From: Thermoclostridium stercorarium subsp. stercorarium DSM 8532
GTDB taxonomy: Bacteria; Bacillota; Clostridia; DSM-8532
Length of the DNA stretch: 64,000 nucleotides
Assembly (NCBI RefSeq): GCF_000331995.1
Contig: NC_020134.1
Location: 1,339,465-1,403,464, forward strand
Direction: 5' to 3'
Under the pieces are notes generated by a model that saw nothing but the letters and a program-made list of their open reading frames with translations, was not told the origin of the DNA and made no database searches. The stretch's first letter is position 1, and every line of letters begins with the position of its first letter. The translations under genes were made by a program, and so were the position numbers. Positions 20,991 through 44,098 of the stretch are shown here, one piece after another.

Positions 20991-21879
20991 TGTCTCTTTT
21001 TTATTTGTTCTGAGAATCTTAATGCATGCAATTTAAAACTATATGTTTGAGTCTGTCTGGATAGTGTCTTGTCAAGTGGTGTAAAATGATTTCTACTTTA
21101 TCATTTTTTCACCTCATTTATGTAATAAAGCTACTGGCGTCAATGTAAATTCATTTATCGATGTAATCTTTGACATTGATTCCAAACTGAAATAACGCCG
21201 CCCTACTTTCCATTCATCATTTTGTTCCATGAGCATTGCTCCTACCAATCGGATTACCGCCTCACGATTTGGAAATATGCAAACAACATCCGTTCGACGG
21301 CGAATTTCACGGTTAAGTCTCTCCAGCGGATTGGTAGAGTGTATCTGTGCCCAATGCTCACGAGGAAAAGCCATATATGCCAGGATTTCTTCTTCTGCTT
21401 CTTCAAGAATTTTCATTGCTTTTGGAAAACGATTTTTAAGCTCATCTACTACATGCCTTAACTGTTCCCTCGCAGATTCCTGATCATTCTGGGCAAATAT
21501 TGTCCGTATTATCGATGATACCATCCCCTGATAATGCTTTGGTACCTGGCTTAATACATTTCTCATAAAATGTACACGGCATCTTTGCCATGCACTTCCC
21601 GTTAAAATCTTCTTTATTGCAGCCTTCAGCCCTTCATGTGCATCACTGATTACAAGCCTTACACCTTTTAGACCCCTTGCTACCAGCCTTCTTAAAAACT
21701 CCTCCCAAAAAGCCCCGTCTTCACTCATCCCTACATCAAAACCTAATATTTCCCGTTCACCTTGTTGATTAACTCCTACTGCTATAACTAGTGCCATACT
21801 GCATACCCTGCCTCCTTCCCGAACCTTGGGGAAAGTGGCATCAAGCCAAAGGTAAGGATATTCTCCTTCCAGTCTACGG

Positions 21880-28073: not shown

Positions 28074-28102
28074 TTGATAAAATAAAGGGTTGTTAACATA
28101 AT
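28074..28102 (+). promoter_or_regulatory. Promoter of the pilus operon
   Basis: TTGATA and CATAAT are spaced by 17 bp. It would give a leader of about 170 nt before pilB. Confidence 0.5.
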
Positions 28103-28279
28103 TTATTTTTAATTACAAAAAAAATATAGACATAAAGTCCTATGTTAAATTAGTAAAAGTTTCCTAATTAAATAAGTTTAAAGCCTTATAGGATTTATAT
28201 TCCACAGAAAATATAATTAAAGTACAGAAAATCCCAATAAAAGATATGATTTTATAAATTATATAAGGTGATAAAAATA
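28103..28279 (+). other. AT-rich leader region ahead of pilB
   Basis: No coding region. Small hairpins are possible (ACATA...TATGT at 28130-28145; AATTAG...CTAATT at 28147-28168). I do not see the conserved blocks of a c-di-GMP-I or -II riboswitch. Confidence 0.4.
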
Positions 28280-30436
28280 ATGTCTGTAACTGTAAAAATT
28301 GATGGTTACGACAACATAACAGTAGAAAAAAGTAAACTGCTCAGGTTTTTGGCTGAGACGGAAGGTTATGAATTTCTCGATCTTTCGGAATACACCATAC
28401 CTGATAAAAGTATTCCGTACCTGATTGGGGAAAAACTGTCGAGAAAATTCGAAATGCTTGCCCTTGAAAAGAGAGACAATACATTACTCCTGGCGATGAA
28501 AGATCCCAAAAACATTTTCGCCATCGACAGTGCGTCTTTGATAACCAGCCTTGACATAAAACCTGTGATGGTTGATCCCGACCTTCTGAGGGATTTAATT
28601 GACAAAGTTTTTACGGTACAGGAACCAGAAATAAAGGAAACCAGCCCGGTTCAACCGGAAGAAAAAATAGAGAAAAAGGAACAGGAAAGTTCCGAAAACA
28701 AAGCAACAATCTATAAGCAAAAACTGGGAAGTATTCTTCTTTCCCAGGGATTGGTTGACAACGAACAGCTGAGAAAAGCTCTTGAAATTCAGAAAGAAAC
28801 AGGAGAAATGCTGGGTTCAATATTGGTCCGGGAAGGCTTTATAACAAAGGAACAGTTATACCAGGCACTGGAAGAACAGCTTGGGGTTCAGTACACAGAT
28901 CTTAAAGATGTGGAGATTCAGGAAGAAATTGTAAAGCTGGTTGATAAAAAACTTGCAAAATCGTATAACCTTATACCGCTGAAGGTAGAGGGTGAATCCC
29001 TCTACGTGGCGATGAGCGACCCGGCCAATATATATGCTATAGATGATGTAAGGCTTGCAACGGGCTATGAAGTAATACCTCTTCTTGCTGACGGCGACAT
29101 TATTAATGAAAAGATTGAGGTTTACTATAAAGAGGAAGAGAAAATTGAAGAGCCTGCGGAAGAAGAGGAAACAGAAGTAATTGATATTGAAAGCGAACTT
29201 GAGAAGGTAAAAGAAGAAATAGAAATAGAGGTAAAGAAAGAGGAACAGATTGAAAAAACAATAGATATAAGCGACGTTGAAAACGCTCCGATAGTACGGC
29301 TTGTAAATATGATCTTCAAAAGCGCCGTTGACAAAGGAGCCAGCGACATTCATATCGAAGCATATGAAGACTGTGTAATGATACGTTTCAGAATCGACGG
29401 AAAACTTACCGAGTTTATGAGACAGGACAAAAAAATCCAGCAGATACTGATAGCACGCATAAAGATAATAAGCGGACTTAACATTGCCGAAAAGAGGGTT
29501 CCCCAGGATGGAAGAGTTGCATTGAAAATTAATAACAAGAACTATGATTTCCGTGTGTCGACACTTCCTACCGTTTTCGGTGAAAAAGTCGTTATCCGTA
29601 TCCTCGATAAGGAAGGGTTCAACAGAACAAAGGACGAACTGGGAATGTTTGATGACGACATAGAGAAATTTGACAGTATTCTTTCCCATCCCCATGGGAT
29701 AGTGCTTGTTACGGGTCCGACGGGAAGCGGTAAGTCCACCACTTTGTATACTGCGTTGAGAGAGTTAAGCAAGCCAACCGTCAACATTCTGACCGTTGAG
29801 GATCCGGTGGAAGCCACAATCAGGGGCATAAACCAGGTTCAGGTGAATGTTAAGGCGGGGATGACCTTTGCAAGTGCGCTTCGCGCTTTCTTAAGACAGG
29901 ACCCGGACATTATCATGGTGGGAGAGATACGCGACAGGGAGACTGCAGAAATAGCAATACGCGCAGCTATTACAGGTCACCTGGTATTAAGCACGCTCCA
30001 CACCAACGATTCGGTAAGTTCCATAACAAGGCTTATGGATATGGGTATCGAACCGTTCCTTATAGCTTCATCCCTTGTCGGAGTTCTGGCCCAAAGGCTT
30101 GTAAGAAGGCTGTGTAATGCCTGCAAGGAGGAATACGTAGCCAAACCTCACGAAATGAAAATACTGAATGTAAATGAGGAAACAAAGCTGTACAAGCCTG
30201 TAGGATGTCCGGAATGCAACGGCACGGGATACAAGGGGCGAATTGCGGCTTACGAAATTCTGACGATAAATTCTGAAATGCGGGATTTGATTTCGCGCCG
30301 CGCCACCAACGAAGAATTGATGCATGTGGCATTAAAAAACGGAATGCGGACACTTAAAGACAGCTGTGCCCGCCTCGTTTTATCAGGAGTTACGTCGCTT
30401 GAAGAAATGTTAAGCGTAGTTTCAATAAATGATTAG
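28280..30436 (+). CDS. pilB: Type IV pilus assembly ATPase PilB with MshEN domain
   Basis: Cytoplasmic motor that polymerises pili. 718 residues from the ATG at 28280, which has AAGGTG 9 bp upstream; the in-frame GTG at 28268 overlaps that site. First a GspE N-like domain (about 1-120), then a MshEN repeat pair (about 145-205: KLGSILLSQGLVDNEQLRKA and LGSILVREGFITKEQLYQAL), a fold known to bind c-di-GMP. A Glu/Lys-rich linker (about 285-335) leads to the ATPase with Walker A GPTGSGKSTT, Walker B-type DPDIIMVGEIRD and a tetracysteine zinc site (CNAC...CPEC). First gene of the pilus operon. Confidence 0.95.
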   Translation: MSVTVKIDGYDNITVEKSKLLRFLAETEGYEFLDLSEYTIPDKSIPYLIGEKLSRKFEMLALEKRDNTLLLAMKDPKNIFAIDSASLITSLDIKPVMVDPDLLRDLIDKVFTVQEPEIKETSPVQPEEKIEKKEQESSENKATIYKQKLGSILLSQGLVDNEQLRKALEIQKETGEMLGSILVREGFITKEQLYQALEEQLGVQYTDLKDVEIQEEIVKLVDKKLAKSYNLIPLKVEGESLYVAMSDPANIYAIDDVRLATGYEVIPLLADGDIINEKIEVYYKEEEKIEEPAEEEETEVIDIESELEKVKEEIEIEVKKEEQIEKTIDISDVENAPIVRLVNMIFKSAVDKGASDIHIEAYEDCVMIRFRIDGKLTEFMRQDKKIQQILIARIKIISGLNIAEKRVPQDGRVALKINNKNYDFRVSTLPTVFGEKVVIRILDKEGFNRTKDELGMFDDDIEKFDSILSHPHGIVLVTGPTGSGKSTTLYTALRELSKPTVNILTVEDPVEATIRGINQVQVNVKAGMTFASALRAFLRQDPDIIMVGEIRDRETAEIAIRAAITGHLVLSTLHTNDSVSSITRLMDMGIEPFLIASSLVGVLAQRLVRRLCNACKEEYVAKPHEMKILNVNEETKLYKPVGCPECNGTGYKGRIAAYEILTINSEMRDLISRRATNEELMHVALKNGMRTLKDSCARLVLSGVTSLEEMLSVVSIND

Positions 30437-30447
30437 GGTGTAATTTT

Positions 30448-31506
30448 ATGAATATCAACGAATACTTGCAAAAAGCCGTAGAGATGGATGCTTCAGACCT
30501 TCATATTTGTGCAGGTTTACCGGTGGTCATAAGAAAACACGGCTCGCTGTTTTTTGTCGATGACCACATACTTACAGGAGAAGATTGCCTGAGTTTGGTG
30601 AAGCAGTTGTTGAACGACTCGCAGTTCGCGTTTCTTGAAGAAGAAGGAGAAATTGACTTTGCTTATATGCTCTCCGGTGTCGGAAGATTCAGGGTCAATG
30701 CTTTCAGGCAAAGAGGAACTTATGCCATAGCCATAAGGGTTATTCCGTCGAGAGTACCGAAAATCAGTGAATTGGGGCTTCCGAATATCCTTTATTCACT
30801 GGCGGAAAGGCAGAGAGGCCTTGTCCTTATAACAGGGCCTACCGGAAGCGGTAAATCCACAACCCTTGCCGCAATGATAGATCATATTAACAGTACAAAA
30901 AGATGCCACATTGTAACCATTGAAGATCCTATCGAATATTTGCATAAACACAACAAAAGCGTGATAAATCAGCGTGAAATAGGCTCGGATACTAAAAGTT
31001 ACAGCAACGCATTGAGAGCAGTGTTAAGAGAAGATCCCGACGTTATTCTGATTGGTGAGATGAGAGATTTGGAGACAATTTCCATTGCGTTAACCGCTGC
31101 TGAAACGGGACATCTGGTTCTGTCAACACTGCATACATTGGGAGCGGCCAAGACTGTTGACAGAATTATAGACGTATTCCCTCCGCATCAGCAAGGGCAG
31201 GTACGCAGCCAGCTGTCGACGGTGCTACAGGGGATTGTTTCGCAGCAGTTGATAAAGAAAGCTGATAATGCGGGAAGAGTGGTCGCTACAGAGGTCATGA
31301 TAGTAACTCCTGCGATAGCAAACATGATAAGGGAGTCGAGGACGTATCAGATCAACAGCAGCATTCATACGGGCGGAGAATACGGCATGCATTCCATGGA
31401 TGCGTGCATAGCTTCTTTATATAAACGCGGTTTGATTACTTATGAAAATGCATGCCAGTATGCCATGGACCCTGTGGCAATGAAAAAGTTAATAGCGCTG
31501 GAATAA
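30448..31506 (+). CDS. pilT: Type IV pilus retraction ATPase PilT
   Basis: 352 residues, normal PilT length. It has Walker A GPTGSGKSTT near 131, an Asp box ITIEDPIEYLH, Walker B DPDVILIGEMRD and the AIRVIPSRVP linker. In Gram-negatives the C-terminal AIRNLIRE motif marks PilT; here IANMIRESRTYQINSSIHTG fits. Its presence implies retractable pili and hence possible twitching or DNA uptake. It follows pilB by 11 bp. Confidence 0.94.
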   Translation: MNINEYLQKAVEMDASDLHICAGLPVVIRKHGSLFFVDDHILTGEDCLSLVKQLLNDSQFAFLEEEGEIDFAYMLSGVGRFRVNAFRQRGTYAIAIRVIPSRVPKISELGLPNILYSLAERQRGLVLITGPTGSGKSTTLAAMIDHINSTKRCHIVTIEDPIEYLHKHNKSVINQREIGSDTKSYSNALRAVLREDPDVILIGEMRDLETISIALTAAETGHLVLSTLHTLGAAKTVDRIIDVFPPHQQGQVRSQLSTVLQGIVSQQLIKKADNAGRVVATEVMIVTPAIANMIRESRTYQINSSIHTGGEYGMHSMDACIASLYKRGLITYENACQYAMDPVAMKKLIALE

Positions 31507-31536
31507 AAAAATTAAATAAGAAAGGAGGGAGTAAAA

Positions 31537-32634
31537 ATGGCAGTGGTGGATCTTTTCTCCAACAATTTTATAACAATTGATATTGGCTTTCGGTATATCA
31601 AAATCGTGCAGGTCAAAAAGAGCAAAAACAATGTATTATCGGTGCTTAATTATGGTATCGGAGATACACCGAAAGGCTGCATAAAAAACGGAGCAATAAA
31701 GGATAAGGACGCTGTTGTTGCGGAAATAAGTCGTGTCCTGAGAGAGCATAACATCAACTCTAAAGAAGCCAAGATAGTTATGTCGGGCACCAACATCATA
31801 TCCAGGGTAATTATGATTGATAAAGTGCCTGAAAGCGAAGTTGACAAAAAAATATGGGAAGAGATTCGGGACACAATTCCTGTGGACATGAATTCCAACA
31901 GGATTGACTATAAACTTCTCGGCGAAACAGTCGTGGACGGGCAGAAGAAGATAAAAGTATTTGTAACCGTTGTATCCAAGAAAATTATAGATAATTACAT
32001 AAATATCCTGAACCAGCTGAAGCTGAAGCCTATAGCGGTTGATATTCCGTCCAACAGTGTATCGAAGTTTTTCAAGCTCGACATAGACACAGGGCATGAT
32101 CTTAAAAAGCCGCTGAATCCAAGACATGACAACAACACATGCATCGTGTTTGATTTGGGTTCGGAAACCACTATTATTAACATACTGAAGGACAAGACTC
32201 CCGAGTTCAATCGGGTAATCCTCAAAGGCAGCAGCAAAATTGACGAGGAGATTATCAAGGAACTGGACCTGCAGCCTCATGAATATCACAAAGCCGAACT
32301 TTACAAGAAAATGTACGGTTTGTCCACCATTTTGACGCCGTGCAACGAGTATCTTTGCTCCAAAGCCGCAATGAGAGTAATGGATTCAATAATTAAGGAC
32401 ATCAAGATGTGCATAGACTTCTATCTTACGCGCTGTAACGGTGAACATCCAAGCAAAATTTTCCTTATAGGCGGAGGTTCACAGATGAAAGGCATCGAGG
32501 AATATTTCGAAGAAAACCTCGGATTGCCTGCTTACAGGATAAATGTTGCCAAAATCGGCGGTTTGGAATTCAGTCCGTCTCTTGACAAGGACAGGCTTAA
32601 TTATCTTGTTAATGCGTTGGGAGTAGCATTATAA
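31537..32634 (+). CDS. pilM: Type IV pilus assembly protein PilM (actin-like ATPase)
   Basis: 365 residues with the FtsA/actin-like fold. The phosphate-1 motif ITIDIGFRYIKIVQV is near 12, the phosphate-2 motif VFDLGSETTIINI near 205 and the adenosine motif IFLIGGGSQMKGI near 308. It forms the cytoplasmic ring that links the motor to PilN and PilO. Ribosome site AAAGGAGGG. In normal synteny between pilT and pilC. Confidence 0.92.
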   Translation: MAVVDLFSNNFITIDIGFRYIKIVQVKKSKNNVLSVLNYGIGDTPKGCIKNGAIKDKDAVVAEISRVLREHNINSKEAKIVMSGTNIISRVIMIDKVPESEVDKKIWEEIRDTIPVDMNSNRIDYKLLGETVVDGQKKIKVFVTVVSKKIIDNYINILNQLKLKPIAVDIPSNSVSKFFKLDIDTGHDLKKPLNPRHDNNTCIVFDLGSETTIINILKDKTPEFNRVILKGSSKIDEEIIKELDLQPHEYHKAELYKKMYGLSTILTPCNEYLCSKAAMRVMDSIIKDIKMCIDFYLTRCNGEHPSKIFLIGGGSQMKGIEEYFEENLGLPAYRINVAKIGGLEFSPSLDKDRLNYLVNALGVAL

Positions 32635-32646
32635 CAGGAGGTTTAT

Positions 32647-33864
32647 ATGCCGGTATATACTTATAAGGTAAAAAACAGCGAAGGGGAAATTTTCACAGGT
32701 GAAACAAAGGTTGAGAGCAAGGAAGTGTTGCTTGACCTTTTCAACAAGCATGGGTATAAGCCCCTGGAAATTACTGAAAAAAATTTTGTCAACGACGTAA
32801 CGCAGCTTAAAATTTTCAGAAAGAAGGTTAAAATAGCGGACCTTGCTCAGTTCTGCCGCCAGTTTGCGATTATGCTTGAAGCAGGCATATCCATTGCCGG
32901 TGCGCTGGACGTTCTTAGATATCAGACCGAAAACCCGACACTCAGGGAATGCCTTAACGATGTCTACAATAACATACAGAAGGGTATTTCGCTGTCAAAT
33001 GTCATGCGCAGCTTTCCAGATATCTTTCCGCCAATACTGTTAAGCATGGTTGAAGCCGGAGAGGTCAGCGGACAGCTGGACAAAGTGTTTGTGAAAATGG
33101 CCGAACATTTTGAAAAGGAACATAAACATCAACAGAAACTGAAAGGTGCAATGACGTATCCTATAATAGTGTTGACCGTTGCGGTTATTGTGGTGGCGGT
33201 TTTGGTTTTAAAGGTGATTCCCACCTTTGGCGAGGCATTACGGGGAATGGATGTGGATCTTCCGGCATTAACCCAGACATTGCTGAACATAAGCTATTTT
33301 TGTAGCTCATACTGGTATATTATTCTATTTGGAACAGCATTGCTTATTTATGGAATAAAAACCATGTCTAAAACAGACCGTGGAAAGAGAATTCTGGATA
33401 AAGTAACCCTTAAGCTCCCGATTGTTAAGGATGTAATTCAGACGATACTTACCGCAAGGTTCAGCAGGGCATTGTCCACGTTGCTTTCGAGCGGCGTGCT
33501 GCTTATTGAATCCCTTCAGATTACAAAAAGGATAATCAGCAATTCATTAATTCAGGAAAGAATGGAGAAAGCCATTGAAACCCTAAAACAGGGAAGAACG
33601 TTGACGCAGTCAATCACTGAAATGCAGTATTTTCCGCCGCTGGTGCTGTCAATGATAAAAACGGGCGAAGAGGCGGGAAATCTGGATGAAACACTTCAGA
33701 AAGCGGCTGACTTTTATGAGGATCAGACCGAAGAAAAGCTGCAGAGGCTTATGACATTCCTTGAACCGTTAATAATGATAGTTTTGGGCGGAATAGTTGC
33801 ATTTATACTGTTCAGCGTATTGTATCCGATGCTCAGCGTTTACCAGAATTTGAGCACCTACTGA
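32647..33864 (+). CDS. pilC: Type IV pilus inner-membrane platform protein PilC
   Basis: 405 residues with two T2SSF domains. The first begins LAQFCRQFAIMLEAGISI near 64 and the second ARFSRALSTLLSSGVLLI near 270. Each carries a variant of the EAGEVSGQLD / TGEEAGNLDE motif, and three membrane spans are seen. It transmits motor action to the growing pilus base. Ribosome site ACAGGAGG, 12 bp after pilM. Confidence 0.95.
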   Translation: MPVYTYKVKNSEGEIFTGETKVESKEVLLDLFNKHGYKPLEITEKNFVNDVTQLKIFRKKVKIADLAQFCRQFAIMLEAGISIAGALDVLRYQTENPTLRECLNDVYNNIQKGISLSNVMRSFPDIFPPILLSMVEAGEVSGQLDKVFVKMAEHFEKEHKHQQKLKGAMTYPIIVLTVAVIVVAVLVLKVIPTFGEALRGMDVDLPALTQTLLNISYFCSSYWYIILFGTALLIYGIKTMSKTDRGKRILDKVTLKLPIVKDVIQTILTARFSRALSTLLSSGVLLIESLQITKRIISNSLIQERMEKAIETLKQGRTLTQSITEMQYFPPLVLSMIKTGEEAGNLDETLQKAADFYEDQTEEKLQRLMTFLEPLIMIVLGGIVAFILFSVLYPMLSVYQNLSTY

Positions 33865-33923
33865 TTATAAAAACTGCCTTTATCCTGATTAAAACAGGAA
33901 TTTATTTAAAAGCGTGAGGCCTA

Positions 33924-33943
33924 TTAAGCATTTTTATGCTTAA
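33924..33943 (+). other. Hairpin ahead of the pilin gene
   Basis: TTAAGCAT and ATGCTTAA form a perfect 8-bp stem with a 4-T loop, 15 bp before the pilin ribosome site. It has A-rich rather than T-rich sequence after it, so it is not a standard terminator. It could mark a processing site or a weak attenuator between pilC and pilin. Confidence 0.45.
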
Positions 33944-33970
33944 AATAAAAAAATTTTAGGAGGTTTGAGA

Positions 33971-34525
33971 ATGATGAAAAAACTGCTAAAACAAAACAAA
34001 GGTTTTTCGCTCGTTGAGCTGCTTGTGGCAATACTCATCATGGCTGTTATCGCAGCCACGGCGATTATGCTCTTCGGAGGAGTGCTTAATTCCAGCAAGA
34101 CAAGAGCAGACGCCGAGACCGCGGAAAATATCAAGAGGGCAATTTTAACGTACATGAATCTTACTAATGACACTGATCTGAGCTGTCTGGACGTGGACAA
34201 AGAAAATCCCGATGATCTTATACAGAAATTGTCTTGTATAATTAAAATTGATGAAAAGAATGGAGTAACATTTACAAAACCAAGCAATGCTGCGTTTGAA
34301 GGAGATCTAAGTACTGTAGACGCGGAGAAGATTGATGGTACTGATATACCAGGCGAATATGGGCCCTTTTTGGACGGTTCTAAAGATATGAAGCCACAAG
34401 CACCTGACAAAGTGGGTTGGAAAATAAATGTCGATGTAAAAACGCAAGTAGTTACTGTTGAGGCTGTTAAAGGAGGAACGGAAGAGGAAGAGGAAAAGCC
34501 AGGAGTTACAATAAAAACTGACTGA
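33971..34525 (+). CDS. Type IV pilin (probable major subunit)
   Basis: 184 residues. The short leader MMKKLLKQNKG ends at a prepilin peptidase site followed by FSLVELLVAILIMAVIAATA, with Glu at +5 and the long hydrophobic helix of a class IIIa pilin. The rest is acidic and soluble, probably variable between strains. The start at 33971 is 7 bp after AGGAGG, a very strong site. With the strong hairpins around it, this suggests it is the most highly expressed pilin. No prepilin peptidase gene is in the window. Confidence 0.92.
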   Translation: MMKKLLKQNKGFSLVELLVAILIMAVIAATAIMLFGGVLNSSKTRADAETAENIKRAILTYMNLTNDTDLSCLDVDKENPDDLIQKLSCIIKIDEKNGVTFTKPSNAAFEGDLSTVDAEKIDGTDIPGEYGPFLDGSKDMKPQAPDKVGWKINVDVKTQVVTVEAVKGGTEEEEEKPGVTIKTD

Positions 34526-34554
34526 AAAAGAAGAACCGTAAAAGATTTAATTAT

Positions 34555-34583
34555 TGCACTCCCATCTTTTGGATGGGAGTGCA
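34555..34583 (+). other. Strong intercistronic hairpin after the pilin gene
   Basis: A perfect 12-bp stem TGCACTCCCATC / GATGGGAGTGCA with a 5-nt loop. No T run follows on either strand. It probably protects or separates the pilin mRNA from the rest of the operon. Confidence 0.7.
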
Positions 34584-34609
34584 CAAAAAATATTCCGGAG
34601 GGGATTAAC

Positions 34610-35089
34610 ATTAAAAACAATAAAGGTTTTACATTTCCAGAGCTTTTACTGGCGCTTCTGCTTGTTGTTATGATATCCGCGATACTGACCGAGCTTATGG
34701 TTTTCAGCACAAATTCAACTGCGGCGTATTCCAGGTTCGGAAGACAGCAGTTTACGGTCCAGGACGCCTTTTCACGGCTTAACCGCGATATAGAAGGCGC
34801 CGAGAAGATATCCTTTGAAGATTGTATTGCAGGCAATGAGTACAAAACTATCAGTCTGACGATTAACGGTGAGTTAAGAAAGTGGAAGTTTGACGGTGGG
34901 AAACTTTATTTTGATTCCACTGTTGTGGTTGAAGGTCTCACTGATGAAAGCAAATTTGTTTATAACTTAACCGAAAAAAACCTTACCGTGATATTAATGC
35001 CGGAGTCCACGAATGAAGGCAGATTCAGGTTTAACCTGAAAAAACCCGTTGTTTCCCAATACAGCCTGTTTTATAAAAATGTGAATTAG
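34610..35089 (+). CDS. Type IV pseudopilin with apparent ATT start codon
   Basis: The protein must begin upstream of the first ATG (34670), because the in-frame codons from 34610 give a complete prepilin signal. That is (M)KNNKG followed by FTFPELLLALLLVVMISAIL, with Glu at +5. GGAGGGG lies at 34597-34603 and the codon at the right distance, 34610, is ATT. No ATG, GTG or TTG lies in frame between the upstream hairpin and 34670. So the start appears to be ATT, a rare initiator known from infC. 159 residues; the soluble part resembles PilW/GspJ-like minor pilins (VQDAFSRLNRDIEGAEKISF). Confidence 0.8.
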   Translation: MKNNKGFTFPELLLALLLVVMISAILTELMVFSTNSTAAYSRFGRQQFTVQDAFSRLNRDIEGAEKISFEDCIAGNEYKTISLTINGELRKWKFDGGKLYFDSTVVVEGLTDESKFVYNLTEKNLTVILMPESTNEGRFRFNLKKPVVSQYSLFYKNVN

Positions 35090-35090
35090 T

Positions 35091-35142
35091 CATTGCTTTA
35101 ATGAGTGCGTACAAACGGGGCTATGCATTGATTAAAGCAATG
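35091..35142 (+). other. 12-bp inverted repeat between pseudopilin and pilN
   Basis: CATTGCTTTAAT and ATTAAAGCAATG are perfect complements separated by 28 nt. No T run follows. Second large intercistronic structure flanking the early pilin genes. Confidence 0.55.
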
Positions 35143-35184
35143 AATGCTTACCCATGACAAAGCTTCATTGAGGGAGGAATTTTA

Positions 35185-35745
35185 ATGAAGGATATAAATT
35201 TTCTGGTGGAAGAGACTCCGTTTGAGGAAGGATTAAAAAAAGAGAAAAAAAGTATCCCCATGGCAAAAGTAATGGTAATGGCTCTGGTTATTGCCATCGG
35301 GATTGCCGTTTTGCTTACGCCGGGTATTTATGTCCGGATACTCGAAGGCAGGGCCGCGGCGCTTGAAAAAAAACTTAGTGATGAAAAATACAATGAAGTG
35401 CGCGCTGTAAAGGCGCAGCTTGCTTCAATAACAGGCAAGGTAAGCAGCAAAAAGGCGATTATAAACGCTATTGAGACCCAAAACGTGCCAGCTTCACAGA
35501 TACTTTTAACCGTTCAAAATGCGCTGCCTTCCGGGTGTTTTCTGAACTCGGTCAATTACAACGGAAAGTCTGTCACAATAAAAGGCATTGCCGAAAGCAG
35601 TTTTATAGCGGTGGATTATATGGCTAATCTGGGAAGACTTAAAATTTTTGATACGGTTAACTACAGTCTTTCAATAGAAGAGAGCCAGAGCGATGTAGAG
35701 TTCACACTTAACTATACGCTTAAAAGTCAGGGAGGTGCAAACTGA
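35185..35745 (+). CDS. pilN: PilN-like type IV pilus alignment protein
   Basis: 186 residues. A cytoplasmic N terminus (MKDINFLVEETPFEEG) matches the INLLP-type motif that binds PilM. A single membrane span (about 28-52), a coiled coil (LEKKLSDEKYNEVRAVKAQL) and a ferredoxin-like domain with VQNALPSGCFLNSV and VTIKGIAESS follow. It links cytoplasmic PilM to PilO. Its stop overlaps the pilO start. Confidence 0.87.
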   Translation: MKDINFLVEETPFEEGLKKEKKSIPMAKVMVMALVIAIGIAVLLTPGIYVRILEGRAAALEKKLSDEKYNEVRAVKAQLASITGKVSSKKAIINAIETQNVPASQILLTVQNALPSGCFLNSVNYNGKSVTIKGIAESSFIAVDYMANLGRLKIFDTVNYSLSIEESQSDVEFTLNYTLKSQGGAN

Positions 35746-36929
35746 TGACCCTGACTAAGAAAGAGAAAGCAATGCTGATTATTCTTGCCGTTCTGGTATA
35801 CATATTTGTATTCGTCAAGTTTGTGTTATTGTCTTCAATGCAGAAAATAAAAGAGGCAAAAAACAGGATACAAACGGTACAGACTCAGCTTGACGCCCTT
35901 GAAAGGGATTACAGTAACATTGAAACATTTAAAAAACAGATTAAAGAAAATGAAATAATAGATGAGCGGCTCGGCGAATATCTTATGGACAATGCAGGTT
36001 TTGCCGACAGTGTTAAATTCGTAGAAAATCTGGCGCTTCTAATCGGGACAAGGCTGAAAGGCATATCCTTGGGCAGTCCGATTGAACTGACCGAAGAAAA
36101 TGCCACATACTACGCTTTCCCGGTAAGTTTTAAGACGATATTGACTGAAGAAGGGATTAATGAGCTTTTGAAGTTTGTTGAGGGCGGAAGCAGAAAAGTT
36201 AGCGTAAACAGTCTTAACATCACCCCAGCCGGCGACGAAACCGCATCTGAGTTCGGACTTACAAGCTCAAATGAACAGTTATTTGATGTAAATGTAAGCA
36301 TATACTTTTATTCCATTGACAAAGATGCTGCCGATAACCTTGCCAGGTTTACCAGAGCCGCGTTTGAAAGATTTATTGAGAATAATGATTTGCCGGTTTT
36401 CATAGAAGATACGGACAAGGTTGATATAGCATTTCCCTCCAGAAACACGCAGGCTTTTGAAAACACCGGTATCCGGAACGCAGGCAGTTCATCAGAAATC
36501 ACGTTGATGAATGCCGATTTCAAAATTTTTCACAGAGGGTACCTGTTTGCAGGGTACAATTTTGAAACCTATTCCCAATTCAACAGAAGTGAAAGAATAC
36601 GTTACCATGTGGGCGTGCCTGTGGACGTAACGCTTATACTGGGAAAGAGCCAGTATACTATAGAATATGCTGATGCCAACGGCTATAACGAAAAATTAAC
36701 CGGCAGTCTGCCTGAAAATGAAAACAGGGATTATACCTTTTTCATTCAATCCAACATAGCAAACGATGTTAAGGAAAATGAAAACATATGGGTCAATGTC
36801 TACATCAGAAACGATTCCGGAAGAAACTTAATAATAAAACGCGAACAGACGGGTGACAGGGTCAGAATAATGGATAGGGACGGAAATATCATAGAAAGAA
36901 AAAGCGATAAGGAGAAAGTGTATATCTGA
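35745..36929 (+). CDS. pilO: PilO-like protein with a long C-terminal extension
   Basis: 394 residues, about twice the usual PilO length. The first ~195 residues are PilO-like: a membrane span at 9-29, a coiled coil (KIKEAKNRIQTVQTQLDALE) and a ferredoxin-like fold. Residues ~200-394 are an extra domain, probably beta-rich and extracytoplasmic, with GVPVDVTLILGKSQYTIEYA and NIWVNVYIRNDSGRNLIIKR. I do not recognise this domain. It sits where PilP or minor pilins would be encoded, so it may replace a separate partner. Overlaps pilN by 1 bp. Confidence 0.78.
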   Translation: MTLTKKEKAMLIILAVLVYIFVFVKFVLLSSMQKIKEAKNRIQTVQTQLDALERDYSNIETFKKQIKENEIIDERLGEYLMDNAGFADSVKFVENLALLIGTRLKGISLGSPIELTEENATYYAFPVSFKTILTEEGINELLKFVEGGSRKVSVNSLNITPAGDETASEFGLTSSNEQLFDVNVSIYFYSIDKDAADNLARFTRAAFERFIENNDLPVFIEDTDKVDIAFPSRNTQAFENTGIRNAGSSSEITLMNADFKIFHRGYLFAGYNFETYSQFNRSERIRYHVGVPVDVTLILGKSQYTIEYADANGYNEKLTGSLPENENRDYTFFIQSNIANDVKENENIWVNVYIRNDSGRNLIIKREQTGDRVRIMDRDGNIIERKSDKEKVYI

Positions 36930-36930
36930 T

Positions 36931-37404
36931 ATGAATGGTAAGAGACTGAGTAGGAATCTGCCGAAATACGCCTGTTTCCGGATTTGTAAAGACGGCTTTA
37001 CACTGATTGAAGCCGTTGTTTCGATAGCCATTGTTGCAATTTTGTCGGTTGTTATCTATTCGCTGTTCTTCTCAATGTCGAAAATATCAAAATATTCTGA
37101 AGAACAGCTGAAAAGGTATGCGGTAATCAGGGTCATTAAGGAGAATGTCGCATATTCTGTACGGAACGACGCCGAAATTACCGGCACCAACAAAAAAGCG
37201 CTGAATTTAAATCGCGCTGGAGCAGGCAAATTTGAATACTTGCCAGTAAAGGATCTGGCCGGCAATGAGTACCCGGAATATGTTTTTGATTTGGAATATA
37301 TGGGTACTGCGGGTATAAACGTATACCGATATAAGGTGGCTTTAAAGCCTGTTATCAATGAGTCAGACAAATTCGAATTTATGTTTGAGGTGTACAGGCC
37401 TTGA
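36931..37404 (+). CDS. Minor pseudopilin
   Basis: 157 residues. A longer leader ends in CKDG followed by FTLIEAVVSIAIVAILSVVI, with Glu at +5: a clear prepilin peptidase substrate. The body is short and basic, and ends in a strand pair FEFMFEVYRP. It begins 1 bp after pilO and overlaps the next gene. Likely one of the minor pilins that prime assembly. Confidence 0.85.
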   Translation: MNGKRLSRNLPKYACFRICKDGFTLIEAVVSIAIVAILSVVIYSLFFSMSKISKYSEEQLKRYAVIRVIKENVAYSVRNDAEITGTNKKALNLNRAGAGKFEYLPVKDLAGNEYPEYVFDLEYMGTAGINVYRYKVALKPVINESDKFEFMFEVYRP

Positions 37405-39629
37405 AAAAGATGGAAAAAATGAGGGGGATTTTAAAAAACAAAACGGGAAACACAATTCCCACAGTTTTAATGGTAATGCTTGTGGTTATGCTTGTCGGAG
37501 GTGCCGTAGCCTATTCCACCGTTCGGCTGTTTAATATAGTCAGAAGCGAAGAACATAACCAGATGGCATATATTGCTGCGGAGTCAGCACTGGAAAGAAC
37601 CATTTCCAACCTTGATCAGTACCTGCCGAGTGAGGATTTCGCCGCCAAAAGGGGAATTGTTTTTACGGGCGAGGAGCAGTTTATAAACGACATAATTGAA
37701 AGGTTAAACGCAGGAGACAGTGAAGTCATAAACAGTTACAGTATCCCTGTATATGCGGATCCCTCGATGAATGAAGCGAGCGTAAAAGTGTCTTATTCAT
37801 GGTATGGCGGTGAATTTGAACGTATTGGCAATAAGCTGAAATTCCCGCTGGAGATTACGGCTGAAGCCCAGATGGAAAACGGAATGTTCAGGTCTTACGG
37901 GAGAAAGGTAGTTGCGGTTAAGGAATATGAAGTTTGGCTTTATAAGCCGTTTGTTTTGAACGGTGCGGTGTATACTTTGGGAGATCTTGTGGCAAAAGGC
38001 GACGGCGTCTCAACAATAAACGGTGATGTGTATGTTTTTGGAACCGGACTTGATAAGCCTAACCGGATGGAACAGTATTACATGGGCGGTATATGCGCGG
38101 TAGAAAATGCAATTCTTCACATTCAGAAAGGAAGTGCCTTTACAAACAATCTGCTTCGCGTAGGGACGTTTGACGAAACGGCGGGCCAGCAGTGCGCCAT
38201 TGTTGTGGATTACGATGTGGTTGCAGAGGGAATCCAGGCTTTCGGATATGATGACAGTATAGTAATTATACGGGATGCGTATACCTTCGACGATATAGAA
38301 ATGAACGGAGCAAATTCGTATATAGCGATTAACGGTAATTATTTCGGGTTAAGTTACGGAGACGGGTATTTCCACGACACGTCCAGCGCGGTATTGAATA
38401 TAGCTCCGATGTATTCCGGAGGTTTTAACAATGATTTTATCCGCTCCAGGATTGTCATTAACGGCTATGCGTTTGTCAATGGTTCGACTTTCGTGATGGA
38501 AGTGGAAAGAGGCAGAACAATGTATCAGCTGGAAGATGTGGCTTTGGCGTGGAGAGGCAACAGACCTGTATATCTTTCAGGAGGGTTTGACAATACCGCG
38601 GAGTATATCGAAGATTTAAAGAAAAACGGCGGAAACGGTTTTTCGGTTATACTCGGAGATGTCGGCTGGACTCAGAACAGAAACCTGACTGCTAATTGGG
38701 AGACGTGGACGAACTGGATACAGGAAATACGCAGCAGAGTAACGCCGTGGTCGAACAATATTCACGTTCCTTCGAAAATCACCGGCTTATGCCACAAGGC
38801 CATTGCTGCAAATAACAGGATTTATTTTGCGGGCAATGATATCGAGATACCTGCATCTGTGGTATGCAGAATAGGTGACACCGTGGAAGGGCTTGAGCCC
38901 GGATTGCTTAACAGGTTTATACATTATGACTGGGATGAATACAGCGATATGTTTTCCGGAATGCCCAAAGGGCTGGAAATACTTATGAGTTATCTGAAAG
39001 GCCAAGTACAAGTATTCGCAAGGAAGGACTACCCGGCTTCGCAGGACAGTGAAGTAAGCTATAAATTTACTCCCGGCATGCATGAGCCGTGGAATTTGGG
39101 TGCTACAACCGAATTTCTGAGAATTAGGGATGCACTTGATGAAATTGACGCAAACCGGTGGGAATCCGTAATCAAATTTGAAGGTGGCAACAACGAACCA
39201 GTGGATCTGGTTCAATACATCGAAGATAATTATTCAGATACTTCAAAATACTATTTAATTATAAATCTGAATCCTGAAAAGGAATTGATTATAAGCAGGG
39301 ATACGGTAAACGGAATAATTTTTACAATGGGCAAGGTTACGGTTGAAAACGGTGCCACGCTGAACGGGGCGATTATCGCCGCGGGCAGGGGCTACGATCC
39401 CCGAAATAAAGTCGGGGGGTCTGCCGCGGAGTTTGACAGTTACGGAAATCCAAGGCTTCCGAGAATTGTAGGCAATACAAACGTTGAAAATTTCAGAAAC
39501 TGGGATTATGCGGCTGTTGTATTAAATTCAGGAAATGTAATTTTCCCGGGAAGGGAAGAATTGTTTGACAGATTTACCGAAGAAGTTGACGGAATAAAAT
39601 TTTCGGATATTCTAAGAGGAATACTCTGA
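37401..39629 (+). CDS. Large PilX-like pilus-associated protein
   Basis: 742 residues. The N terminus has a short basic stretch, then GNTIPTVLMVMLVVMLVGGA and AYIAAESALERTISNL, the layout of PilX-type minor pilins, though without a canonical G-F/E+5 site. The remaining ~680 residues look exported and beta-rich. Short repeated strands such as STINGDVYVFG, NGAVYTLGDLV and VNGIIFTMGKVTVENGATLN suggest a beta-helix. I choose TTG at 37401 because TGAGGTG lies 8 bp upstream; an ATG at 37410 is an alternative. The great length is unusual for the class. Confidence 0.7.
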   Translation: MKKMEKMRGILKNKTGNTIPTVLMVMLVVMLVGGAVAYSTVRLFNIVRSEEHNQMAYIAAESALERTISNLDQYLPSEDFAAKRGIVFTGEEQFINDIIERLNAGDSEVINSYSIPVYADPSMNEASVKVSYSWYGGEFERIGNKLKFPLEITAEAQMENGMFRSYGRKVVAVKEYEVWLYKPFVLNGAVYTLGDLVAKGDGVSTINGDVYVFGTGLDKPNRMEQYYMGGICAVENAILHIQKGSAFTNNLLRVGTFDETAGQQCAIVVDYDVVAEGIQAFGYDDSIVIIRDAYTFDDIEMNGANSYIAINGNYFGLSYGDGYFHDTSSAVLNIAPMYSGGFNNDFIRSRIVINGYAFVNGSTFVMEVERGRTMYQLEDVALAWRGNRPVYLSGGFDNTAEYIEDLKKNGGNGFSVILGDVGWTQNRNLTANWETWTNWIQEIRSRVTPWSNNIHVPSKITGLCHKAIAANNRIYFAGNDIEIPASVVCRIGDTVEGLEPGLLNRFIHYDWDEYSDMFSGMPKGLEILMSYLKGQVQVFARKDYPASQDSEVSYKFTPGMHEPWNLGATTEFLRIRDALDEIDANRWESVIKFEGGNNEPVDLVQYIEDNYSDTSKYYLIINLNPEKELIISRDTVNGIIFTMGKVTVENGATLNGAIIAAGRGYDPRNKVGGSAAEFDSYGNPRLPRIVGNTNVENFRNWDYAAVVLNSGNVIFPGREELFDRFTEEVDGIKFSDILRGIL

Positions 39630-39639
39630 GGTGAGATAT

Positions 39640-40878
39640 ATGAAAAAATTAGGTATTGTCTTATTGATTGCTTCTGTTTTAATATTCGGGACAAGTTGCG
39701 GTGTTATGCAACCCGCTTCTGTTACCGTGAATGAAGGAGGAGTGGGAGAAAAGCCGGCTACGGCAACAATATCCGCTGATGACGACTTAAAGGCGAAGAA
39801 AGTTATTTCCGAATATTTTACCGCTTTATATGCCGATACATCTGTGGACAGCTACAATGAGTATTCAAGAACGGGCATAATTCCCGACAATATTCGGGGT
39901 TATATTGCCGACAAAACCATAAAAGAGGGGGATGGTAATCCGGAGGTAGGAATTCATCTTCCAAGATATGTTAGTGTAAACGGAATGACAATTATAGGGT
40001 ATAATGTGGAAATTCTGAAGTCCGGAAACGGAGAGGATACTCCTAATATAGTGTCCGAGTTTGTTTCCAAAAACGGCGACAATTATCTCTACTTTACAAA
40101 GGTTTACTGCAAGGCGAAGGCAATACCCGATGACGTGTTTTCGTCGAGCTACCGGAAGAATGAAGACAATACTTATACGAAAATGAGAGATATTGGGCCG
40201 GAAAATATTGATCTAATGAGAGTGGAAATAAGGTACGACGTTGAACTGACGAAAAGCGACGTTGGTTTCAGCATCCTCAGAGCCACAGAATCAAACATAA
40301 AGCCGGGCATGAAAAACAGGCTGTTTGTATTTAATAATGACAATATTACAAGGCTTTCCTATCTCGACCTGACCAAAAATGATGACGGCAGCTACAGGAA
40401 TCCTTCCGACGGAGAAATCTACGAAACCGAAAAAGCAGTTGTTACAAAGTTTTTTTCAAGGTTTACCGAACTTGACCGGGAAAGAATGAATTTGCTGTCT
40501 TACAGATGGAAGCAGGGAACAAAACAGGTATCCGAGTTCCTGAACGTTCTTGGTGTTACAACTGACGAAGAAGGAGTCAAATTAATAGAATTAAACGATA
40601 ATTACGGCGAAAATTATCCGCTAAACTCTTTCCCGCTCAGAAACAACATGGAGAGAATTGTGGAAATCAAAAACTTTACCGTTACTCCGCATCCTGCTTA
40701 TTCGGATAAAATAAAACTTTACTACGTGAATTTCGATGCCACTGTTCAAAGGACAAACGGCATAACCGACGAATATTTTACATATCGTTACGACTATATC
40801 GTGTCTCTTGCAAAGGCCGAAAATTCGGTTTATATTGAGAAATTCAGACTGAATGAGTATTATAATGTTTCAAATTAA
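39640..40878 (+). CDS. Lipoprotein of the pilus locus
   Basis: 412 residues from the ATG at 39640 (GAGGTGAG upstream). The signal MKKLGIVLLIASVLIFGTSC ends in a lipobox Cys at 20. The mature part holds two blocks starting with KKVISEYFTALYADTSVDSY and KAVVTKFFSRFTELDRERMN, each followed by beta strands, suggesting a duplicated NTF2-like or cystatin-like fold. Gram-positive lipoproteins face the wall side of the membrane. By position it may serve the role that PilP or pilotins play in Gram-negatives; this is inference. Confidence 0.7.
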   Translation: MKKLGIVLLIASVLIFGTSCGVMQPASVTVNEGGVGEKPATATISADDDLKAKKVISEYFTALYADTSVDSYNEYSRTGIIPDNIRGYIADKTIKEGDGNPEVGIHLPRYVSVNGMTIIGYNVEILKSGNGEDTPNIVSEFVSKNGDNYLYFTKVYCKAKAIPDDVFSSSYRKNEDNTYTKMRDIGPENIDLMRVEIRYDVELTKSDVGFSILRATESNIKPGMKNRLFVFNNDNITRLSYLDLTKNDDGSYRNPSDGEIYETEKAVVTKFFSRFTELDRERMNLLSYRWKQGTKQVSEFLNVLGVTTDEEGVKLIELNDNYGENYPLNSFPLRNNMERIVEIKNFTVTPHPAYSDKIKLYYVNFDATVQRTNGITDEYFTYRYDYIVSLAKAENSVYIEKFRLNEYYNVSN

Positions 40879-40894
40879 AAAGAGGTGATTAAGC

Positions 40895-42037
40895 GTGTCC
40901 AGGTTTAAGAAAATCATTGTGTCAGCAATAGCGGGCATGGTGTTTTTTGCAACAGTTAATGTAAATGCATTGGCACAGGCATCTACCGATACAAAGAGCC
41001 AACCAAGCCACTGGGCTGAAGAGGAAATTTCCGAGGCCATTGCTAAAGGCCTTGTTCCGGAAGAACTTCAGACAAATTACCAGAGCAATATAAAAAGATA
41101 CGAATATGTTCTGCTGGCTTTGAAAGTGTTTGATAAAACAGGAAAGCAGGTCAATACCGAAAATGAAAAACCCTTTAATGATGTTTTGAATCATAAATAC
41201 GAGCAGGAAATTGTCAGGGCATATAATGCCGGCATTATAAAAGGCGACGGAAAAGGTAATTTCTTTCCGGATAATTATATAACAAGGCAGGAGATAGCCT
41301 CTTTGGTTGTTAATTTGCTGATGCGTATTTCGCCTGAAAAGGATTTTTCCGTAAAAAACAGCTATGAATACAGTGATGAATCTGAAATAAGCGACTGGGC
41401 AAAATACTATATTGATTACTGTTTTGAAAACAAGATTCTCACCGGTTACGGCAACAATGTTATAGATCCGAAGGGCAATGCCACCATTGAACAATCCATT
41501 GCGCTGCTTTACAGACTTGCCAAAAATGAAGGGATCATTGACGAACAGGCCGAAGAGTCTGAAAAAGTGGAAGGAATTCGCGGACCGGTAAAGATTGAGG
41601 AGCTGAGCCAGGAAAGAATAGAAGCTTTTGTCGGCGAATACAATGCCGAAACATTCGATATAATCAAAAAAACAGCCGAAAATGAGAATGTAGAAATAAC
41701 AAGTTTCTGGGACAAGAGCGCGACGCTGCTCGTTAAGGAAAATACCATATCCCTGAACAGCCCGGATTTTGAGAAAAATATTTTTGCCCTTGTTCATGAC
41801 ATAAATGACGAACTCTTTCTTGAAACATTTAAGAAACTCATAAAGGCCAACTTCATCAACGGCGAAAAAGGAGTTACGCTGTTAGAGCAGCATTTGAATG
41901 AGATGAAGAGAGGGGAACTTGTTGATGTATATGAAGAAATAAGCGAAAATGAAAGATTTGTTATTGAATCGCTGAAGGACGATGTTGACAACAGTGTAAG
42001 TTACCTGATGGCTTTTATCCAAAAGAAGATGAAATAA
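40895..42037 (+). CDS. S-layer homology (SLH) domain protein of the pilus locus
   Basis: 380 residues, GTG start with AGAGGTGATT upstream. A signal peptide ends near NALAQA (about 29). Three SLH repeats follow (about 38-210): SHWAEEEISEAIAKGLV, EIVRAYNAGIIKGDGKGNFF with TRQEIASLVVNLL, and DWAKYYIDYCFENKILTGYG. SLH triplets bind pyruvylated wall polysaccharide, so this is a wall-anchored protein. The C-terminal ~165 residues are charged and helical and unrecognised. It may dock the pilus or the following VWA protein at the wall. Confidence 0.82.
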   Translation: MSRFKKIIVSAIAGMVFFATVNVNALAQASTDTKSQPSHWAEEEISEAIAKGLVPEELQTNYQSNIKRYEYVLLALKVFDKTGKQVNTENEKPFNDVLNHKYEQEIVRAYNAGIIKGDGKGNFFPDNYITRQEIASLVVNLLMRISPEKDFSVKNSYEYSDESEISDWAKYYIDYCFENKILTGYGNNVIDPKGNATIEQSIALLYRLAKNEGIIDEQAEESEKVEGIRGPVKIEELSQERIEAFVGEYNAETFDIIKKTAENENVEITSFWDKSATLLVKENTISLNSPDFEKNIFALVHDINDELFLETFKKLIKANFINGEKGVTLLEQHLNEMKRGELVDVYEEISENERFVIESLKDDVDNSVSYLMAFIQKKMK

Positions 42038-42065
42038 AAAATTAGAATGAAAGGAGATGATAACA

Positions 42066-44051
42066 ATGCTTTCAGGTAAGAAAAAAGTATTTTCAAAAAT
42101 TATGGTATTCGCTGTTGTGCTTACATTGTTGTTGGGGTTATGGACAAGCTCTGCAGCTGGCGCGGTAACACTTGAACCCAATACCAAAGCCGTCCTTGAG
42201 CTTTCAAGGGAAATCAGCAGATCAAAAATACTTTTGGATGAAGAAATCACCGTTACTTACCGGATAAAGCCCAATCCGATACCGGCAACGGCGGTGAGGC
42301 AGCCTCAAAGAGAAATATATCTTGTTATAGACACTTCCGGAAGTATGAATTTTAACCTGGCGGGTCAGACAATTCAGGCAAGAAGCAGAGAAAAATCGAG
42401 GCTGGATATTGTAAAGGAAGCCGCGCTGAAATTTCTTGACAACCTCAGTGGCAAAAGCGGAGTTAAGGTGGGGCTTATTACCTATGACGATGTAGCCAGA
42501 ATAGTGCAATCTCTTACAACCAATCTCAATTCGGTGAAATCCAGAGTTAACGCTCTTGAGGCTAACGGCGGAACCAACATCGGTGACGGTTTAAGACGCG
42601 CCTATTACAGATTAACGGACACAAGAAGCACTAACGAAAATCCGATAGAAAAATACCTTATTCTTTTGACCGACGGTGAACCGACATACCACAGCACTTA
42701 CAGAACGTATCCGTATAATTTCTATTTTGAGGACGGAAATGCTCCTCATTTCAGGGGCGGCGGAAGCTATGCATGGCCTGAGGACAAACAATACTGCTAT
42801 GATGTGGCCGAAAGGTTTATAAAACAAAGCGGTATAAAATCGTACATGATTGCATTTACCGAAGGTTCAAATGCAAATGTGCTGAGTGAAGTGGCAACAA
42901 AGGCCGGAGGCGTATATAAGCGGGCTGTTACTTCCGATGCCCTTGACAGGGTTTATGAAGAAATTTACCTGGATATAGTGACTGATTTCAGTGTTGAAGA
43001 TGTTTCATTCGAAGAAACGTTCCCTGCCGGCGTAGAGATTGTCTCGGTTCCTGCGGGATTTACGGTTAACGGACAGAAAGTAAAAGGCAGCCTCGGCAAC
43101 ATTAATTATACATACAATTCCTCTTCCAGGCTTTACGAGGCAAACCCGATTGAGTTTACAATCAGGCTTAAGGGGAGCGTAAGCGGAAATTATACGCTCA
43201 ATTCGGCAAAAATTTCGTATAAGGACATTGATAATAATACCGAAACAAAGAATTTCGAGAATAAAACAATTGAAGTAATAGCATTGCAGGCACCAATCCG
43301 TGTTGACAGGACCATAAACGGCGATGAATTTCTTATGGACGAGGAAATTGTTGTAAACTACACCGTAACGCCGGAAGAATTCAGTATTGATCCCGGTTTG
43401 GTACCCCCGAGCGAGCTTATTGTAAAGAACGTCAGTTTTTCGGAGGAATTCCCCGAAGGTCTGCAGGTTGTATCGGTATCAACAGATGCGTTAAACGTAG
43501 CTGCGGGTAAAGTAACAGGAAATTTAGGAGACATAGTTTACAGATATGACAGCACAAGCAGAAAATATAAGGCATCGCCCGTAAACTTCAGTATCATCTT
43601 AAAGGGAACAATAGGTGAATATATTATAGGTGAAGGCAACTCTTCAAAGGTAAGCTACTTTGACCTGGACAAGGTAACAAAGGAAAAGAGTTTCCCTGAA
43701 CTGAACGCCAGAGTGGTAAAATTCGGGCAGCCCGGACTTGAAGTTGTAAATATTGTGAAAAAAGGCGAAGTTGTTGATGTTACGCTGAAAATAACCTTGC
43801 CCAAACGTACGCGGTACGGTGAGCTGAGAATACCGGTTATTAATGATGACGGAAGTCTGGGTAAGGTCAGAAGCAGCGACACGCTTATCACGACGGTAGG
43901 CGGAAGTTCTGATGTGACTGTAACCGAGCATACAATCAGGAATTTGTCTATCTATAAAACCCACAGGGCGTGGCTGTTTGCCGAAAGCGTTTCGGGCGAA
44001 ACCAGTGAAACCGATGTCATTACCATCTTTGAGGGTGTAAATGTTAACTGA
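42066..44051 (+). CDS. VWA-domain surface protein, possible pilus tip adhesin
   Basis: 661 residues from the ATG at 42066, 9 bp after AAAGGAG; the ATG at 42057 abuts that site. Signal peptide to about 31. The von Willebrand A domain (about 80-295) has the full MIDAS: DTSGSMN, GGTNIGDGL and LLTDGEP. It lies between the first strands of a repeat module (SREISRSKILLDEEITVTYR) and the module's rest. A second module, starting DRTINGDEFLMDEEIVVNYT, follows. Both carry FPAGVEIVSV / FPEGLQVVSV-type DUF11-like strands. PilY1 of Gram-negative pili and RrgA of sortase pili also place VWA domains at the tip. Last gene of the locus. Confidence 0.82.
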   Translation: MLSGKKKVFSKIMVFAVVLTLLLGLWTSSAAGAVTLEPNTKAVLELSREISRSKILLDEEITVTYRIKPNPIPATAVRQPQREIYLVIDTSGSMNFNLAGQTIQARSREKSRLDIVKEAALKFLDNLSGKSGVKVGLITYDDVARIVQSLTTNLNSVKSRVNALEANGGTNIGDGLRRAYYRLTDTRSTNENPIEKYLILLTDGEPTYHSTYRTYPYNFYFEDGNAPHFRGGGSYAWPEDKQYCYDVAERFIKQSGIKSYMIAFTEGSNANVLSEVATKAGGVYKRAVTSDALDRVYEEIYLDIVTDFSVEDVSFEETFPAGVEIVSVPAGFTVNGQKVKGSLGNINYTYNSSSRLYEANPIEFTIRLKGSVSGNYTLNSAKISYKDIDNNTETKNFENKTIEVIALQAPIRVDRTINGDEFLMDEEIVVNYTVTPEEFSIDPGLVPPSELIVKNVSFSEEFPEGLQVVSVSTDALNVAAGKVTGNLGDIVYRYDSTSRKYKASPVNFSIILKGTIGEYIIGEGNSSKVSYFDLDKVTKEKSFPELNARVVKFGQPGLEVVNIVKKGEVVDVTLKITLPKRTRYGELRIPVINDDGSLGKVRSSDTLITTVGGSSDVTVTEHTIRNLSIYKTHRAWLFAESVSGETSETDVITIFEGVNVN

Positions 44052-44069: not shown

Positions 44070-44098
44070 TTAAAAAGGCAGGTCGCATGACCTGCCTT
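44070..44098 (-). terminator. Terminator of ilvE, probably also acting on the pilus operon
   Basis: AAGGCAGGTC and GACCTGCCTT form a 10-bp stem with a 4-nt loop. On the minus strand TTTTTAATTT follows. On the plus strand there is no T run. Confidence 0.7.

Follow-up and report, generated by a model that had tools for sequence, protein, structure and literature searches.

Type IVa pili of monoderm Firmicutes have been described in Clostridium perfringens, Clostridioides difficile and Streptococcus sanguinis (PMC6916266), where PilB, PilT, PilC, PilM, PilN, PilO and the major and minor prepilins are encoded in loci that lack a secretin. The field has yet to explain how such pili cross the thick wall of Gram-positive cells and hold on to it (PMC6916266). 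VWA domains are also known within type IV pilus systems, both in the modular pilin PilB of S. sanguinis (7b7p; PMC8179133) and in the PilY1/PilC1 tip adhesin, a separate large Sec-exported protein whose gene accompanies those of minor pilins and of a PilX-like protein (PMC7541494, PMC8179133). In clostridial operons, stem-loops set stoichiometry through RNA processing, as in the selective RNA processing and stabilization (SRPS) operons of Clostridium (PMC4423207, PMC8219983); neither of these two papers mentions pili.

The locus described here lies in a stretch of 64,000 nucleotides (the window) from Thermoclostridium stercorarium subsp. stercorarium DSM 8532, whose genome is a single contig of 2.97 Mb. 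It shares the above components (in the case of PilO, probably) and the lack of a secretin gene in the locus with the known Firmicutes systems. It differs in encoding three further proteins, namely a lipoprotein, an SLH protein and a VWA protein exported by Sec; its PilO has a long C-terminal extension, and pilD is unlinked. The pil loci of two sister families (G245, G364, G115 and others; G313) resemble it in the order from pilB to pilX, in the lipoprotein and in a hairpin that follows the gene of the major pilin, but they have no SLH or VWA gene, and those of the larger family also lack pilM between pilT and pilC. Unlike S. sanguinis PilB, the VWA protein bears a Sec signal and, in place of a pilin module, a C-terminal domain of its own, and unlike PilY1/PilC1 it has no beta-propeller, homology being detected in the VWA domain alone. 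The likeness to the SRPS operons is a stable stem-loop at the 3' end of that gene whose product should be the most abundant one, whereas the AUU-type start discussed below is outside that model, and cleavage at the pilus locus would be a supposition. The locus appears to represent a new form of the type IVa pilus of monoderms, distinguished by an orphan lipoprotein that is conserved, by a wall protein and putative adhesin specific to one family, and by a probable control of stoichiometry.

The pilus locus and its core machinery

The open reading frames and domain searches delimit a pilus block of 13 co-directional genes at 28268-44051 (Table 1), in the order pilB, pilT, pilM, pilC, major pilin, minor pilin, pilN, extended pilO, minor pilin, PilX-like giant, lipoprotein, SLH protein and VWA protein. 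The initial annotation of this DNA had given the same genes on one strand, and it was confirmed on both counts, all 13 lying on the plus strand with domains that match their description. Its starting point, 28074, is not the first start codon, which is at 28268; the position does correspond to a sigma-70-like promoter match 194 nt upstream, which is not significant by itself, since 47 such sites were found against 38 expected in shuffled sequences. Intergenic distances range from -4 to 30 nt, apart from three wider ones of about 85-106 nt around the genes of the major pilin and the first minor pilin. The neighbouring genes, for MATE efflux upstream and ilvE downstream, are on the opposite strand, and the 10-bp hairpin between the end of the VWA gene and ilvE is probably a terminator common to both. 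From the gene layout, the 13 genes are predicted to form one operon. Between the first minor pilin gene and pilN, a 13-nt inverted repeat (TCATTGCTTTAAT) was observed at window positions 35090-35102 and 35131-35143. Elsewhere in the window (20723-21001), four decayed CRISPR-like repeats, spaced by 66, 66 and 102 and including one Rfam CRISPR-DR2 match, lie downstream of three tRNA genes.

Table 1. Features of the pilus locus (window coordinates)
Feature	Position	Strand	Evidence and remarks
Promoter-like site upstream of pilB, weak	28074..28102	+	TTGATA-17-CATAAT, 10 of 12
pilB, extension ATPase, two MshEN-type domains (c-di-GMP binding type)	28268..30436	+	TIGR02538 684.7 bits; NF053729; MshEN 6.6e-30
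pilT, retraction ATPase	30448..31506	+	TIGR01420 488 bits, cut-off 319.1
pilM	31537..32634	+	TIGR01175 141 bits, cut-off 133; PF11104 5.9e-35
pilC, platform protein	32647..33864	+	PF00482 2.9e-64
Major pilin candidate (KG/FSLVE cleavage motif)	33971..34525	+	N_methyl 4.6e-8; TIGR02532 over cut-off; GGAGG ribosome site upstream
Hairpin between major and first minor pilin genes	34556..34582	+	no T tract; z -4.6
Ribosome-binding site GGAGGGG	34597..34603	+	6 nt ahead of ATT start
Minor pilin pp2, non-canonical ATT start (KG/FTFPE)	34610..35089	+	N_methyl 4e-4
pilN	35185..35745	+	PF05137 2.6e-9
Probable pilO, extra C-terminal region (about residues 215-394)	35745..36929	+	PF04350 0.009, residues 35-168
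Minor pilin pp3 (DG/FTLIE)	36931..37404	+	N_methyl 6.8e-7
PilX/GspK-like giant pilin	37401..39629	+	NF038301 (HpsA) N-terminal match 2e-4
Lipoprotein	39631..40878	+	lipobox Cys23; adjoins pilX
Secreted SLH protein, unique C-terminal domain (about residues 214-380)	40895..42037	+	SLH 4.4e-18
Sec-exported VWA protein, BatD-like repeats, unique C-terminal domain	42057..44051	+	VWA 4.4e-19
10-bp hairpin between VWA gene end and opposite-strand ilvE	44075..44098	.	probable shared terminator

The locus holds a complete monoderm type IVa pilus gene set with the exception of the prepilin peptidase, which is encoded elsewhere in the genome. PilB passes both the type IV-A equivalog TIGR02538 (cut-off 675.65) and the c-di-GMP motif model NF053729 (67.9 against a cut-off of 38), and PilT scores far above its cut-off; the retractable pilus of the initial annotation is supported, as one of type IVa. 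PilB, PilT, PilC, PilM, PilN and class III prepilins, together with a prepilin peptidase in the genome, are the features that place it in this class. There is one PilB/PilT pair in the genome, and the sole further T2SSE-type ATPase over cut-off lies about 100 kb away. Neither a secretin gene nor a competence gene was found in the locus. The reported lack of a prepilin peptidase holds for the locus and for the window, though not for the genome, which codes for a complete PilD of 271 aa (PF06750 and PF01478) at about 1446.2-1447.0 kb of C1, some 63 kb beyond the VWA gene; a second, shorter peptidase of the Tad type lies beside TadE-like genes. An Rfam search yielded no riboswitch, so control by c-di-GMP through a known riboswitch is unsupported.

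The product of 35745..36929 is probably PilO: its PF04350 match is under the cut-off and the profile match to PilO 2rjz is weak (0.4), while its position and topology fit. Its full length, the C-terminal extension included, is kept across three families. Pfam gave no match, and the PDB no significant one, for the C-terminal half (about residues 215-394), and the gene should therefore be termed an extended pilO and not a fused one, as it had first been labelled. Orphan copies of PilM, 41-47% identical to that of the window and apart from other pil genes, were observed in relatives (L144:7321-8355, L147:7565-8722, L150:5001-6128, L151:10355-11452 and L152:5153-6253). G115 has three of them and a pil locus without pilM, and in G012 and G016 the orphan lies 3' of a surface protein gene, which in G012 codes for an SLH protein.

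Three canonical prepilins are encoded in the block, namely the major pilin candidate, pp2 and pp3. The PilX-like protein has no acidic residue at +5; among nine orthologues the cleavage glycine G16 is invariant, while no acidic residue is conserved at +5, a pattern also known from GspK and PilX. A profile search of this protein against the PDB gave nothing significant, and its gene holds the identical position in all the loci compared. Two genomes apparently contain two major-pilin-like genes each, G001 (L138:58-612 and L139:4167-4760) and G205 (L183:7357-7854 and 7941-8399), which are probably tandem copies.

Lipoprotein, SLH protein and VWA protein

The three genes at the end of the block were compared across related genomes. 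The lipoprotein was searched for in two sets, 119 relatives and 391 genomes of the class, and strong scores were obtained in 16 genomes from three families, in every one of which (16/16) its gene directly follows pilX. The lipobox Cys23 after the signal sequence, the mark of a bacterial lipoprotein, is invariant in 14 of 14 sequences. Profile searches gave no Pfam, NCBIfam or significant PDB match, and there was no match in the phage collection. Six weak class-wide matches (E 4e-5 to 8e-4), which covered the N-terminal part only, were judged probably fortuitous and disregarded. The AlphaFold model, built from a two-row alignment, was unusable (pLDDT 36); a tandem NTF2-like fold, considered from its helix-then-sheet halves, was dropped, as a profile comparison of the halves found no repeat. 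Judged from these sequence comparisons, the lipoprotein is an old core part of the pilus locus, occupying the same slot in three families.

The distribution of the SLH and VWA genes is narrower. In the genomes searched, their C-terminal domains occur as single copies, at the pilus locus only and in one family. The succession pilX-lipoprotein-SLH-VWA is found on one contig in five genomes, the source genome included, and contig pieces in G001, G002, G016 and G017 agree with it; the full order of 13 genes is repeated in G008 and G013, and the contig pieces of other relatives fit. An apparently unlinked VWA copy in G003 was rejected, since the end of the VWA gene at a contig end beside ilvE represents the same site. 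In two other families, all 8 loci have the lipoprotein along with the pilus core, but SLH and VWA are missing. The lipoprotein gene is there usually followed by tepA-ylzJ-spoIIIE-like genes, and in G313 by pilD (L184:5670-6461) and a secreted DUF5057 protein of 1066 aa (L184:2346-5543) in the SLH/VWA slot.

The linkage of the last three genes to the pilus, as initially proposed, therefore survived the comparison across related genomes, where they were not seen mostly apart from pilus genes. The further proposal that the three jointly replace a secretin did not, because the lipoprotein stands without the other two in 8/8 loci of two other families. The lipoprotein, SLH protein and VWA protein are thus not one module and have two histories; SLH and VWA are no general substitute for a secretin, and an SLH anchor and a VWA tip would be optional extras, unneeded for the pilus as such. 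By their distribution among the genomes, the SLH and VWA genes are a family-specific addition to the pilus locus.

The SLH domains score over cut-off, and the genome, which holds many SLH proteins, codes for the pyruvyl transferase CsaB. CsaB prepares the wall polymer for SLH binding. The SLH protein thus probably binds pyruvylated wall polymer; what it holds there could equally be the VWA protein, or it could act alone, as readily as it could anchor the pilus. In the VWA protein, the metal-site motifs DxSxS, T and D are kept in the aligned orthologues, and the best PDB sequence match is 7b7p, the S. sanguinis pilus protein PilB (1.9e-18). Profile searches of the C-terminal domains of both proteins against the PDB gave nothing significant. 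The VWA protein has no N_methyl match, which sets it apart from the class III prepilin signal of modular pilins, and no Pfam match to the PilY1 C-terminal beta-propeller, only VWA and sub-threshold matches being found. Having neither propeller nor pilin signal, it falls outside the PilY1 family and outside the modular pilins, and its docking on the pilus tip is accordingly an argument by analogy.

Following the published logic for PilY1 and modular pilins (PMC8179133), the best reading of the VWA protein is that of a plausible tip or fibre adhesin. This agrees with the tip adhesin suggested at the outset, which gains plausibility from the nearest solved sequence being a type IV pilus VWA adhesin and from VWA genes in type IV pilus loci of two other clostridial families, as a Sec-exported protein in f41 and as a VWA pilin in f47. 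A VWA modular pilin was seen in G094 (L157:9327-10862), and a Sec-exported VWA protein after minor pilins in G098 (L156:14933-17929).

The SLH and VWA proteins may instead form a stand-alone pair of wall adhesins, in which the SLH protein holds the VWA protein and both are co-transcribed with the pilus for joint regulation, neither being part of it. The ordinary Sec-type signals of both, their common absence from the 8/8 sister loci that keep pilus core and lipoprotein, and their confinement to the same single family are in line with such a pair. However, the two genes were never seen apart from the pilus locus, VWA modules are a repeated feature of type IV pilus adhesins, and VWA is present in the pilus loci of other clostridial families, so that this explanation is considered unlikely, if the most credible of the alternatives.

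Start codon and hairpin at the first minor pilin

The gene for pp2 is longer than its ATG/GTG/TTG reading frame, which begins at 34670. In the window, the reading frame from the upstream stop to the prepilin motif contains no ATG, GTG or TTG, and the motif is readable solely from the ATT at 34610. Gene callers limited to ATG, GTG and TTG would begin pp2 at an internal codon and drop the pilin signal. The first minor pilin starts with ATT, ATA or ATC, 6 nt after GGAGG, in six genomes (the window and L016, L017, L018, L021 and L139). In G000, G008, G013 and G017 the codon is ATT or ATA, and no ATG, GTG or TTG could include the prepilin motif; G001 (ATC) and G006 (ATT) have a like arrangement, yet an in-frame GTG or TTG is also present upstream. 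The start is ATG in G007, and an ATG is available in other families. No paper on AUU starts in pilins was found in a literature search.

The hairpin between the major and first minor pilin genes is present in 15/15 loci examined (the window and 14 others), with stems of 9-20 bp and z of -3 to -5.5 against shuffles, and a T tract is lacking throughout. Between families the pairing of these stems is intact and their sequences largely differ. A built-in control of pilin stoichiometry is proposed because the AUU-type start and the hairpin recur across relatives, and the two elements probably set the ratio of the pilins.

In the sister family, the gap between pilC and the pilin gene was also observed to contain a long conserved RNA stem whose loop has a run of 7-8 G (L180:8128-8230, L181:13390-13521, L182:13430-13541, L024:8923-9057, L185:7810-7960 and L186:13850-13955). 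This stem has z of -3 to -7, and compensatory changes affect four of its pairs; Rfam gave no match in the loci scanned.

Proposed mechanism and significance

The reading preferred here, to which a probability of about one half is given, is that of a type IVa pilus which responds to c-di-GMP, with the lipoprotein acting in assembly, the VWA protein as an adhesin exported by Sec, the SLH protein docking at the wall, and the hairpin and AUU-type start controlling stoichiometry. PilB would extend the fibre, gated by c-di-GMP at its MshEN domains, and PilT would retract it, while the minor pilins and the PilX-like protein would prime and cap it. The lipoprotein, tethered to the membrane, may serve in assembly on its outer face, where diderms have PilP. 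After Sec export, the VWA protein would attach to the minor-pilin cap by way of its unique C-terminal domain and act as a PilY1-like adhesin, and the SLH protein, bound to pyruvylated wall polymer, would dock either the machine or the adhesin within the thick wall. The hairpin after the major pilin gene, together with the AUU-type start of the next gene, would hold the minor pilin far below the major one.

The lipoprotein, the SLH protein and the extended PilO might alternatively build a conduit or collar across the wall, by which the fibre would be led through the peptidoglycan and which would functionally replace a secretin. Their position in the operon and the combination of a lipid anchor with a wall-binding domain are consistent with this, and a review that names peptidoglycan passage as open points to the unusual PilO of monoderms (PMC6916266). 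A conduit that includes the SLH protein could not be general, however, as this protein is absent from the sister families that share the core, and the proposal is held to be distinctly improbable. Still more doubtful is the joint claim that a collar of lipoprotein and SLH protein carries the machine and fibre through the Gram-positive wall and that the RNA hairpin and an IF3-sensitive AUU-type start of the first minor pilin set composition; neither the collar nor the control by hairpin and AUU start is described for type IV pili in the literature searched. A pseudopilus that serves DNA uptake or protein export, in place of a long adhesive pilus, would share the several minor pilins and the PilX/GspK-like protein, but it is very improbable given a PilT far above cut-off, a PilB that passes the T4aP equivalog, a locus without secretin or competence genes, and a major pilin candidate with its own ribosome site and 3' hairpin.

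The locus offers named candidates for crossing and anchoring in the wall, namely the lipoprotein, kept with pilX in three families, and the family-specific pair of SLH and VWA proteins. Because SLH and VWA are naturally present or absent among sister loci, a clean comparison is possible. The conserved AUU, AUA or AUC start and the hairpin, for their part, suggest a testable route by which the major pilin may be made in large excess over the minor pilin within one operon.
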